From the NCBI GenBank assembly GCA_037951105.1, contig JBAMJV010007473.1, positions 19,026 through 83,025 on the forward strand: 64,000 nt of DNA. Reading direction: 5' to 3'. A program made the position numbers and the translations under genes. This stretch comes from Echinarachnius parma (Eukaryota > Echinodermata > Echinoidea > Clypeasteroida > Echinarachniidae). Under the pieces are notes generated by a model. That model was not told the DNA's origin. It searched no databases and saw only the letters and a list, made by a program, of their open reading frames with translations. This document shows, in pieces, positions 36,001 through 42,000 of this stretch (positions are counted from its first letter, which is position 1; each line of letters opens with the position of its first letter).

Positions 36001-39000
36001 TCCTCAATTTGATGTTTTGCAAAATGTATTTATTAATGAAGTTGCTAAATTAATTGAATGGTTGCAGGCAAATAAGTTAGTTTTAAATCTTACCAAAACT
36101 AACTATATGATTTTTACAAATAAATTGATAGATAAAGATGATATCATTATTAATATAAATGCATCAAGAATAACACGGGTTTCACATGTGAAATTCCTTG
36201 GTGTAATTATCGATGATTGTTTAACATGGAAGGAACACACTGGTGTCATCTGTAATAAAATCTCTAAAAATATTGGGGTCATGAATAGATTAAAGTCATA
36301 TCCTAATGCTTTGTTATTATTATTATATAATACTCTTATAGTCCCATATTTTAATTATTGTATTCTTGCCTGGGCAAATTCTAGTGAACAAAATATGCAG
36401 AGATTGTTTAAATTACAAAAGAGGGCAGTAAGAATTATATCACATTCGTCATATAGGGCTCATTCTATCCCAATATTTTTTAATCTATCTGTATTAACAA
36501 TATATGATATTTATTTACTACAAAGTGCAATACACATGTTTTTATGTAATAATAAAATGCTCCCTGCAACTTTATTAAGCTATTATGAGTTAAATAATGC
36601 CTTTCATAACTATGATACAAGAAATTCTACTAATTTTCATTTACCCCAGATACGAACATCCTCATATAAAAAATCATTTTTTTTCCAAGGACCAAAATTG
36701 TGGAATGATATGCCCTTATTTATGAAGATAATTAAAACATTGAATGCTTTTAAGCTTTCGTATAAACGCTTATTGCTAAGTAAATATTCTGTGCAATCAT
36801 GAATTTCGTATGATATTTTACATTTTGCTGTATTTTTATTTTAATCTTTTAACAACCAGCACGTCAGGTTTTTGTGTTTGTGAATGGGTTTGTGTGTGTG
36901 TGTGTGTGTGTGTGTGTGTGTGTGTGTGTGTGTGTGTGTGCGAGAGTATGAGTGAGCATCATGTTTGAATATTATATGGATAATTTATAACGTGCATTAC
37001 ATTTATACCCCATCAAGACAAGGGGCTTTTATTATTGTATATTTACCTAGATGTATTGTTTGTATGCATGTTACTTTTCTTTACTGGGGTCGGTTTTACA
37101 TAAGGCAATTACAGCCTTTCTACCGACTCCTTACACTTTATAATTTTGTCCGTATTTTGTATACTTTGTATGTAGAACTTGTATTCCTTGATTTTCTTTT
37201 GTTCTTACCTTGTCAATTCGTTGTTTTTATGAAGTGTTAAATAAACTGAACTTGAACTTGAACTTGAATATAATCAAGGAATCCACAGATGCAGTCAGGA
37301 ATATGTCCAATGTGGGAGTAGCCTTTATTCACAAAGACGGATCTATCTTTTTACTAAGGGGGGGGGGGGGGGGGGGGGGGGGGGTTGACCCAATGACGTT
37401 GCGGATACTGTGTGGGTCTGGACACATGATGGCGTTTTTTCTATGCATATCACATTTTCACTTGGCAGCCCAAGGGGGGGGGGGGGGTTAAACCCCTTAA
37501 CCCCCCCCCCCCCCCCCCCGTAGATCCGCCACTGACATCTAGGTATCGTTGTACATAAACACGATGTCGTACAATATAATACTGCAGTAATATACAAAGA
37601 GAACACTTCATACTCCACAATTGCCGAACTCTCCGATGGAGGTAGCAGGAGTAACCAAAACAGGCAGGTCTGCTCCTAAGGTGGGGGAGACCAGATTGAA
37701 GAACTGGACCATGCGATCGTACTATTATTTTATATGTTGGGTCATGGCATGACTATGTATGATTGAGGGATTCATAATGATTGGCTAGTTTATTATATTA
37801 TATGACCTATAAAGATACTGCTGTGCGATTGGTCAAAATGATGTCACGTGACCATCGCTACAAGGATGAGAAGCGTTATATTGACCGACCAGTCAATATA
37901 ACGCCGTTATATTGACCGGTGACGTAATTTACGTCACAATGGGTGTGTGAAGATGAACAATGTGCGCGTATTAGCATCCTGACACGCGCAGCGTTGTTAA
38001 GCTTTCTACGGAGATTGCGCGATCCGAAAGTAAATTTGAAAGGACGGTCGAATAAAGAAGCCTTTTGCGCAGCATTTCGATAACAACACGTCTGTTCTAC
38101 TGGAAGGATTTCGATTTAATCTAATGATTTTCCCTTGTCCATAATTTTATTTCAACACCAAATTTATATTTATCTTGATTTGTATCTATATAGGTCATCA
38201 TAATATAACAGATATTTACTTTTTCCTTCGGGAACCATATAACATTTCATTTCCCTTGGGGAGTTATATTTTTGTCTCGGAATACTATATTTTTCCTCAG
38301 CGCTACGCGCTTCGGAAAAATATAATGTCCCTCGACACAAATATAACTTCCCTCGAGGATCTCAAATGTTATATTGCCCCTCAAGACAGTCAATATCTGT
38401 ATAATATAATAGGGTATGAATATTTATCAAGGGACTTTCGGACCTTATAAGGAGTTAGCTCTATACTCCACACGTGGTGGTCAGGGAGAGGAACTGTGTG
38501 TGGGGGTGCTAATTGCGGATACCATCTGGAGGGTTATCTTAGGAATGTCTGGTTCTGGACCACAAGGCCCAAGGCACCAGGGGGTAATCAATAATAAACA
38601 ATGGGACAATATTCTCTACCACCATACAATTTCTAAGCTTACACACACGATAAATATACTCACAGATACTGAACTTGGGTGGTATTTTCGAAGGCGCCAG
38701 GCTCGATGTAAGACAGAGGATTTCGCCTCAGCGATCTAAATTGAACAAATCAACAATAAAATACAAAATATATATACCGATGTACATTCCACTTGTGGGC
38801 AATTCCACGCCAAAGTGGACATTTGACCAAAAATTTTACAAGCATTTTTATGATACAAATTTGGTATTAAATCAAAGCTTAAATTCTATATTTTTGGAAT
38901 TCAATGAGAAAATTTTAGTTTTACATAATTTTAGTTGTTTTTTTATAATAACTTTATAACCATAATTGAACCCCACAAATTTGACATTTTTGTGAAAAAG

Positions 39001-42000
39001 TGTTTTGATCCTGTGTTTGTTTAATATTTCCCCAGTTAAGCCTAAAAACCATTATTCTGACTCCTGAGATATGACCATTTCGTAAAATAGTAAATTTGTA
39101 TGATTTATTTGATTTGTTATGCTTCAATGACTTCTTATTTTCAGCCTATGAAAATGTCCTTCCGTTACCGAAAAATCAATATTTTTAATTTTGTGGCTCA
39201 CATAATTGTTAGAGAGCAGACCAATCTTCAGTGCAAAGCAAGTTCAAGTAGGCCTTCCCATTGCTAACAATTGTATTACTCATTGTTTCTTCGTTAATTA
39301 ATAAATAACAAAAGAAAATGTCCTTCCGTTACCATACACATGGTAACAGATGGACAAGGTACCTCATATTACATATTATGACAAAATTTATGTTAAAAAA
39401 TTGGTCTCTCATATATGAAAACCCAAAATAATGAGACAATACCTGCAATGGCCAGCTATCTGTGGCGTAGCGTGGTCAGACTAGTAATTTTCTGTGTTTC
39501 AACCAATCAGATTTGTGCATTTAGAACATTTGAACTGGCTCACATTTGATTTTATCTCTTTCTGCAACAGGGCCCTTTTACCATGATGCCATTTGTCTGG
39601 ATTCTATTGTATGGGGATTAGTAGGTCTATTTAACTGTGGTGAGCCAGGGTGTGAATAGGCTCTGATCATGACTTTGAATAGGTCATTTTTATACAATAC
39701 ACCCCTATAGAATTCTTGGACATGGGTGTAGGTCTAAAATAATTAAATTTTACATGAAATTTGCAAACTAAAAACAAGGCTGTAGAAATAGCAAGAAATA
39801 TATCTCCAATTCTTTCATATGTTGTAGAAATTATATCAAGCCAAGATTTAAGCAAAACAAATTCTCAAAATTATTTGATCCACGAGGTAAAACGGAAGGT
39901 CAAATCTAAGGTCAAAGGTTATCGTATCCAAACTCGCTCATGCATGAACACAAATGGCATAAATGGATTGCACATAACATCCCCAGTCCAGTGACACCTT
40001 TACAAAATAAATTGACCCAACGGTTAATGGACAATGGCCATTTGAAAAATGGTGCCCACGCCCATTTCTTACAAAACTCCCCCATAAGAATCGACCATAG
40101 CGCCAAAACCATTGGGCGGATTGGGCTAAAACTTAAATATTTGCGCTTTTAAAGGTTGAAATATCATACATACCAAATATTAGCAAATTTGAAGGGGGCT
40201 GCAATGAAAATTTTCTATTTTTTTTTAAAGGTGATTTGACATGGAATGACCCTACTGTGTCATATCATACATTATAGTCCATTATGTCCTTCCGTTACCG
40301 AACATTGGTCCGCTTTGTGTGAAATAACTCAAATATCTGCGGACAAATTTTAATCAAAAAACAAGTAAATTCTTCTTAACCCTTCAGAGAATGAAATGTG
40401 TACCCTTAAAATATTTTGTATTATTTAATATCACAGAGTTTTAGTTAAAACTGATTTGATAACAAAACCTTGTCCATTTTGGTGTCCTTCCGTTACCGAC
40501 CTCATTTGTATGCATATTCAATAATGTGCGGAGATAAAAAAATAAAAAAATTATGGGACCTTAAAAATGTATGTTTTGGAAGTATTGTTGTCAAAATAGA
40601 CTGTTCTAACAACACAAGTATTTAAAAATGTCTTTCTTAAAGTTGACAATTTGTGTCTGAGTGTCCTTCCGTTACCATGGATTGACCATGAATAAGAGCC
40701 ATTGGAGCATGAAATATAGTAAGAAAAAAATAGAAATGTAAATGTTTGTGATGTCCATATGCTATCTATGATACAAACTCATTTTAGACCACAAAAGAGA
40801 TGTTTCCTTCTCATAAATGGTCTTTAAATTTCACAATTAATTTTATTGTACAATTCCAATAGACTTTTCAGAGGTCCTTCCGTTACCGTCCTTCCGTTAC
40901 CGAACACTGGAGTAATTAATTTCTCATAATTAATATACCAATGTAGATATTTTTCTTAAAAGGTGGTGTTATACTCTGTGAACATAAGGAAATTGACTAG
41001 TAGCCAACTTAACATGATAAACCTCGTAACTTCACAGAGATTGGGTCATAACTAAAAAAATTGAAAATCCATGTCCATTTTGGCGTCCTTCCGTTACCGG
41101 CCTCATTAGTGTCCATATCTAATTTACATAATGCGGTAAAAATTTTAGAAATAGTGGAAATCAAAGGTGTCCCAACAAGGATCAAAGACATGCCATTTAG
41201 AATAAAAAATAAAAAGCAGGATCCTGGAATTATTTGATTGAAGTTCCAAAATTGTGTCTGAATGTCCTTCCGTTACCGTGGAATTGCCCTTGTACATATT
41301 TTGTATTCACACATAAATCGTTCACTTTGGTTCAAGACGCAGGTCTCGAAAGCATCTCAGATTTAAGATAATATCTAAATAACATAAAACTACAAAATAT
41401 AATTAATTGATCCGTCAATAAAAAGTGAAAAGATAAAAGAGTAATCAATATTGAAGAAAAAACAAGCATCAGTCATGCGTGATAATGATTGACTGCCCGT
41501 CGAATAAATGACATTCAAGTCGACTTCCAGTCAATTTCAAAATAAAAGATTATATCATCTGACTTAGTAAAATACGCGTCGTTGATTGGCTAAACACGGT
41601 CACATGACTGGGGTGTCATTTTAGTATGACACCATGGCATGGCCAGAGAGTTATGACACCCGCATGGCGCGCGCTGCAAAAGAGATTGTATTATGACGTC
41701 ACAAGGAGAACCAAAGGTACACGTAACGTATGTTGTTTTTGACTGGTTTCAGTTTCAATGCATGAATGTGAATATAGACCCCGGATTTAGCCAGATGATA
41801 TAACAGTTGTTGACTTTGTCGTCGGGAAAATCATGGAATGTTCCAATCCTTGGGATTTAAAATGCTATTTCGTGAAGAAAATAAGTCCCTCGACTACGTC
41901 TCGGGACTTATTTACTCTTCCCTCAATAGCATTTAAAATCCCTCGGATGGAACATTCCGTGATGTTCCCTCCACCATAATAAGAAACCTATATTTTGTAG

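Follow-up and report, generated by a model that had tools for sequence, protein, structure and literature searches.

In CACTA transposons (En/Spm, Tam1, Tgmt*), TNPA-like proteins are needed on arrays of subterminal repeats, the motif being required in cis and the proteins being supplied in trans, according to the available part of the source (PMC2613891). Hermes, in the part of its description available, has subterminal repeats that are asymmetric: the left end has a palindromic pair, and the right end has sites mostly of one sense (PMC10368747). The subject of this report is a block of 2493 bp (38797..41289) in a 64-kb window from the echinoid Echinarachnius parma (contig JBAMJV010007473.1); the window is the whole stretch of DNA that was analysed, and all coordinates are positions in it. 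This block is a member of a young and abundant family of non-autonomous cut-and-paste DNA transposons, and it carries nine perfect copies of the 14-mer GTCCTTCCGTTACC (motif A) on its plus strand. The reading preferred here, to which we give a probability of roughly 0.68, is that the element is moved in trans and that motif A is a putative recognition site for the transposase or for a partner protein.

The features of a DNA transposon with terminal inverted repeats (TIRs) are all present, namely inverted ends, a target duplication of fixed length and many copies with common boundaries. The TIRs, GGGCAATTCCACG, are complementary at 13/13 positions (38797-38809 versus 41277-41289), which bears out the inverted ends described in the original prediction, and TTGT stands at either flank. 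The genome-wide search that had been proposed as a check, carried out on 1.2 Gb in 14790 contigs, found 6713 occurrences of the exact 15-mer GTCCTTCCGTTACCG (one for the reversed control), 1284 exact right ends and 771 exact left ends, and an internal marker (40230..40257) gave 915 matches with at most 2 mismatches. A search with the whole block, in which the best 40 of 2319 candidates were scored, returned 43 rows, and 35 of these span exactly base 1 to base 2493. Twenty-eight full copies were aligned (the window copy, 26 from the whole-block search and L050 from the 15-mer list); the full-length L046 and L049 were left out, L038, L041, L042, L043 and L048 are partial or interrupted, and L009-L016 are duplicates of the window copy and of L017-L023. 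The aligned copies have a mean identity of 98.3% and lie about 0.9% from their consensus. Identical 4-bp flanks accompany 27/28 copies (the exception is L019), and matching flanks of 5 or 6 bp accompany 0/28; the recurrence of both ends, and of a duplication of constant length, in many copies thus confirms that the block is a mobile element, as had been supposed. The base before the target duplication is C in 20/27 copies and the base after it is G in 13/27, at least one of the two being present in 24/27 and both in 9/27, so that the target leans to C-NNNN-G. The longest stop-to-stop frame wholly within the element has 87 codons, hence no reading frame of transposase size, and comparison of the window with the transposase frame P0001 gave no match at E <= 1 (Pfam was not run on the short frames of the element). 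Hundreds of near-identical copies with precise ends amount to a natural test of what non-autonomous elements must keep. The parts of the window copy are listed here by position and strand.

38793..38796, no strand: target site duplication TTGT, left copy
38797..38809, plus: left TIR, GGGCAATTCCACG
38810..38821, minus: motif B, which reads TGTCCACTTTGG on the minus strand, adjoining the left TIR
39156..39169, plus: motif A copy 1 (14-mer)
39320..39333, plus: motif A copy 2, followed by A (the same A in the 28-copy consensus)
39342..39355, minus: decayed inverted motif A, 2 mismatches in 14, with a near-perfect partner in old relatives
39886..39901, minus: degenerate inverted motif A, with one substitution and two inserted bases
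40230..40257, plus: internal marker of the long family, used for copy counting
40286..40887, plus: first unit of an old tandem duplication (motifs 3-6)
40286..40299, plus: motif A copy 3
40471..40482, plus: motif B, TGTCCATTTTGG, directly 5' of motif A copy 4
40484..40497, plus: motif A copy 4
40663..40676, plus: motif A copy 5, followed by A, with a decayed TIR-like TGGATTGACC after it
40874..40887, plus: motif A copy 6, abutting copy 7
40888..41289, plus: second unit of the old tandem duplication, reaching the right TIR
40888..40901, plus: motif A copy 7
41072..41083, plus: motif B directly 5' of motif A copy 8
41085..41098, plus: motif A copy 8
41264..41277, plus: motif A copy 9, adjoining the right TIR
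41277..41289, minus: right TIR
41290..41293, no strand: target site duplication TTGT, right copy

The original prediction spoke of a 15-mer repeated nine times on one strand, and both halves of that description hold in amended form. The base that follows motif A is G in seven copies and A in two (39320, 40663), so that the unit repeated nine times without error is the 14-mer and only seven copies are exact as 15-mers; the nine perfect copies do lie on one strand, but degenerate copies lie on the minus strand at 39342-39355 and 39886-39901. Recurrence beyond chance was rightly claimed: with at most 3 mismatches the 15-mer has 11 matches in the window (the nine array copies, one decayed minus-strand copy at 39341 and one outside the block at 22297), against a mean of 0.69 and a largest value of 3 in 100 shuffles. 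The spacings between motifs are 164, 198, 179, 211, 197 and 179 bp, the other two being 966 and 14 bp; copies 6 and 7 abut and, as 15-mers, have one G in common. The diverged tandem duplication of 601 bp that had been noted in the right part was recovered with an offset of 601-602 bp. In the truncated copy L043 (3559-3600), three motif A copies stand head to tail and abutting, which means that an abutting pair can grow.

The long family has relatives of other sizes. Five copies of a short family (L037, L040, L044, L045 and L047; 766-782 bp) have the TIR of the long family, save that in L040 one base of the left copy is changed and the right copy is one base short; their left 26 bp are identical to the long family in two copies and similar in three, and all five have 4-bp duplications of their own (5/5). 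Each short copy has three motif A sites at its right end, 14/15 of them exact, and 4/5 have a fourth with its last bases altered. A marker taken from L044 matched L044 alone, the short consensus having one extra base there. An old relative of 1.9 kb, L066, has left and right ends in common with the long family, and its partial sister L064 has the left end; the flanks of L066 differ (ATTT versus AGTA), with no matching duplication. At the left end of L066 and L064 the arrangement GTCCTTCCGTTACC-gaatct-CGTAACGGAAGGAC forms an almost perfect inverted pair, the second arm of which has decayed to 12/14 in the long family. Elsewhere, the palindromic motif pair with exact arms was found only in two places already known, and no exact match was found in viral and prokaryote collections. 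In both the long and the short family the array ends in a motif directly beside the right TIR; in L066 this motif is altered.

A second motif, motif B (TGTCCAYTTTGG), occurs inverted beside the left TIR (38810-38821) and directly just 5' of motif A copies 4 and 8 (40471-40482 and 41072-41083). It is also present at the left tip of L066, L064 and two of the five short copies, and the short consensus has a version with one mismatch before its third motif A. Motifs A and B start alike (ATGTCC) and each adjoins one TIR; in our reading, the two ends may thus carry different versions of one layout.

The claim that the 15-mer is conserved above its surroundings finds support in several comparisons. 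Between the units of the tandem duplication, motif positions are identical at 42/42 and spacer positions at 191/359, and of the five identical runs of at least nine bases, three correspond to motif A, one is TGTCCATTTTGG and one is TTGTGTCTGA, which immediately precedes the last motif. At the right end, the long and short families agree at 55/56 motif and 300/360 spacer positions; at the left end, the long family and L064 agree at 28/28 and 329/547 (130 gap columns). Hardly any contrast is seen between L064 and L066 (motif 26/28, spacer 519/573). Across the 28 long copies there are 11 substitutions at 134 motif sites versus 641 at 2364 other sites, a count so low that only 2 of 1455 shifted layouts reach it, and outside CpG the figures are 5 at 101 versus 624 at 2321. 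Variants found in at least two copies occur at 1/134 motif sites versus 112/2364 others (P 0.03), and single-copy variants show no significant deficit in the motif (P 0.16); a deficit in shared variants that is not significant in singletons is the pattern that selection on source copies, rather than on inserted ones, would produce. The five short copies have 2 substitutions at 59 motif sites versus 138 at 721. Copies without the array and equal divergence inside and outside the 15-mer had been named as evidence that would count against the original prediction: no array-less copy occurs among the 28 full-length copies aligned, the shorter relatives keep three or four right-end motifs, and divergence is not equal, though the contrast with L066 is small.

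Comparison with described superfamilies shows that, of the defining features tested, the element lacks at least one for each of Kolobok, KolobokP, Sola2, hAT and CACTA. CACTA/EnSpm elements have CACTA ends and a 3-bp target site duplication (TSD), and the present element has GGG..CCC ends and a 4-bp TSD. As far as the available part of the description goes, it is like CACTA in having many copies of one short motif inside its ends and in the asymmetry of its arrays, and unlike CACTA in its TIR and TSD, in a 14-bp motif that is error-free in the window copy, and in a spacing of mostly 164-211 bp. The 8-bp TSD of hAT elements is absent, since none of the 28 copies has matching flanks of even 5 or 6 bp. 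From the available part of the Hermes paper, the likeness to Hermes and hAT lies in dissimilar ends, a palindromic left pair (near-perfect in the old relatives) and right-end sites mostly of one sense; Hermes differs in its 8-bp target site and in short AAGT-motif sites that crowd the tips (PMC10368747). The AWWT target of Sola2, as given in the accessible text (PMC3627910), fits 4/27 TSDs. The TTAA target of canonical Kolobok occurs in 0/27, and the likeness to that group, in the portion of the source available, consists of 4-bp TSD length and RR..YY ends, here GG..CC (PMC9587614). The same portion gives KolobokP RR..YY ends, TIRs of 11-18 bp, TSDs of 3-5 bp and non-autonomous forms of 1738-3261 bp (PMC9587614), and the element agrees in ends, TIR length, TSD length and size. 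It differs from KolobokP in that it has no long terminal direct repeats with a TIR of their own; self-comparison gives the right-half duplication and motif-sized matches only. Ginger1 fits in its 4-bp TSD length, but its ends are TGT and those of the element GGG..CCC. AcademX, in the part of the description available, has TSDs of 3 or 4 bp (PMC10045372); the likeness is in TSD length alone, known from that description, with no reference ends or transposase compared. We think that the element may work like CACTA and Hermes elements, but it is a member of neither, given its 4-bp TSD and GGG..CCC ends.

The full-length partner with a transposase, which the original prediction had suggested looking for, was not found. 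The shared left 26-mer followed by a different third base occurs in six places, which are four long-family copies and the old relatives L061/L066 and L064. As candidates for the autonomous partner the latter were rejected: L066 has no frame of transposase size, and in L064 the match ends after about 1.46 kb, the next 5.5 kb (L067) having no further match or right end. Pairing of 70 of the 100 listed left ends (up to contig C683, the last in the list of right ends) joined 63 of them to a right end and left 7 without one; the pairs comprise 42 of 2478-2504 bp, 5 of 776-782 bp, 4 of 2152-2153 bp, one of 1799 bp, one of 2135 bp and 10 that are longer. We interpret the 2152-bp class as derived from the long family by deletion, because the marker lies about 345 bp nearer the left end in 3/4 pairs (C185 is not in the marker list). 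Among the longer pairs, C175 at 93735 and C230 at 212059 each reflect an additional left end that lies upstream of a different pair, and six contain the long-family marker: C471 (8908 bp), C425 (4487 bp), C528 and C141, where it lies 1435-1450 bp from the left end, and C218 and C106, where it lies further away. Since the marker is present, these six are taken as long copies with insertions and not as the autonomous partner; the remaining longer pairs are C208 at 118198-122136 (3939 bp) and C238 at 125249-128291 (3043 bp). L039 and L043, tried as ends of an autonomous element, are taken as truncated copies, and the left TIR was not found in the approximately 23 kb and 13 kb read, save for one GC-rich match with 3 mismatches in L059.

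Searches of the genome with Pfam profiles located PF05551 in 15 places and PF20700 in 32 rows on 16 contigs, and none of these places lies on a contig with left- or right-end relatives (best 40 candidates per list). PF20700 is named 'Mutator-like transposase' in Pfam, and we take it to mark Kolobok-type transposases, given its position here beside a His-Me nuclease. KolobokP-like gene pairs (His-Me nuclease and transposase) are present in the genome, and two stretches of one such unit on C174 (3.7 of about 4.5 kb) contain neither the TIR nor the motif. These units form tandem series (G000:C174:300565-333618 and C9873:24675-34498; L068, L069), in which the spacing of the His-Me nuclease matches is 4528 or 4821 bp on C174 (8 matches) and 4819-4820 bp on C9873 (3 matches); the PF20700 transposase frames are convergent to the nuclease, and one period class is 293 bp longer than the other.

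According to the preferred reading, a transposase encoded elsewhere would mobilise the element in trans, and motif A would be the recognition site for the transposase, or for a DNA-binding partner encoded with it, bound as a multimer. The right-end array would collect several bound molecules, and the left end, which once had an inverted motif pair, would receive the complex; the two ends would be brought together and the TIRs then cleaved. Source copies that lost sites would be mobilised less, which would fix the motif and let the spacers drift. Several observations weigh against this. All nine perfect sites have the same orientation and the array extends over 1 kb into the element, and known subterminal sites are mostly near both ends. 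L066 has a single, imperfect motif A at its right end, and its contrast with the long family is small (motif versus spacer, 26/28 versus 348/590 at the left end and 16/18 versus 148/177 at the right). The P values given above are modest and 26/28 copies were chosen among the sequences that match the window copy best; a transposase gene with these ends was not found by left-end variants, pair length or family, the interiors of the long pairs C208 and C238 not having been read. For Hermes, moreover, a section heading of the source states that auxiliary transposases bound further inside the element are unlikely to contribute to transposition in cells (PMC10368747), an argument against any need for far-inward sites in that element.

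The array might be kept for reasons other than the need of a transposase. If motif A binds a host protein, such as a transcription factor (one of the MYB type, for instance) or an architectural one, it could be retained for open chromatin, germline expression or nuclear placement; six of the eight spacings (164-211 bp) approximate the length of one nucleosome repeat, all nine perfect sites have the same orientation, and the reverse strand contains TAACGG, the core of a MYB site. Such a role seems unlikely to us, since the right TIR has a motif beside it in the long and short families, and an altered one in L066, and since the old relatives have an inverted motif pair at the left end, both of which fit end recognition. 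Far less probable still is that the likeness of the motifs reflects recent copying inside the element, by conversion or tandem growth, and not selection. Motifs can evidently multiply by slippage, as two copies abut at the joint of the duplication and three in L043, but the spacers have not been homogenised, the identical runs of the duplication end at or near the edges of the motif, the same sites are conserved across the long, short and old families, and in the 28-copy consensus sites 2 and 5 still have A, not G, as their final base.

A different question is whether the element derives from a described superfamily (AcademX, KolobokP or similar), only the family being new, and to this we give slightly better than even odds; it is compatible with mobilisation in trans through motif A. 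Its TSD length occurs in AcademX and KolobokP, and its GG..CC ends fit the Kolobok RR..YY rule, in the parts of the sources available; KolobokP-like genes exist in this genome. Set against this are the lack of long terminal direct repeats, a TSD that is not TTAA, and the C174 stretches without TIR and motif. A bolder proposal, which we regard as doubtful, is that of an undescribed superfamily, defined by the 4-bp duplication, the C-NNNN-G target and GGGCAATTCCACG ends, whose transposase would assemble on a strongly one-sided, roughly nucleosome-spaced array of 14-bp operators; the complex would be nucleated at one end, and mobilisation would depend on the array to a greater degree than on the TIR. 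If the one-sided array does nucleate the complex, the element would be, beside Hermes and CACTA, another case of built-in end asymmetry in DNA transposition.

On mobilisation in trans through motif A, the motif predicts a protein that binds GTCCTTCCGTTACC, which gives a handle for finding the missing transposase. Among non-autonomous TIR transposons with a putative binding-site array, we would rate this one as unusual in that its motif is long and free of errors, widely spaced and confined largely to one side. The literature consulted on superfamilies and subterminal repeats gave no description of this family, and a comparison of the motif and end strings with the literature had its sole match in a paper on piglet liver; the family may already be listed in Repbase or Dfam, which were outside the scope of the search.

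The genes in the window are a rhodopsin-type receptor, a Fis1 fragment and a reverse transcriptase, a set that in our judgement fits an animal genome. The frames at 34043-34303 and 38175-38450 have approximately 35 identical residues in common (ITDIYFFLREPYNISFPLGSYIFVSEYYIFPQRYA), which points to one repeat that lies to the left of the reverse-transcriptase frame and again just to the left of the element. In the Fis1 fragment (6137-6523, minus strand), a single frame contains two occurrences of YAWCLVRS-YQDD, which looks like the duplication of part of an exon.

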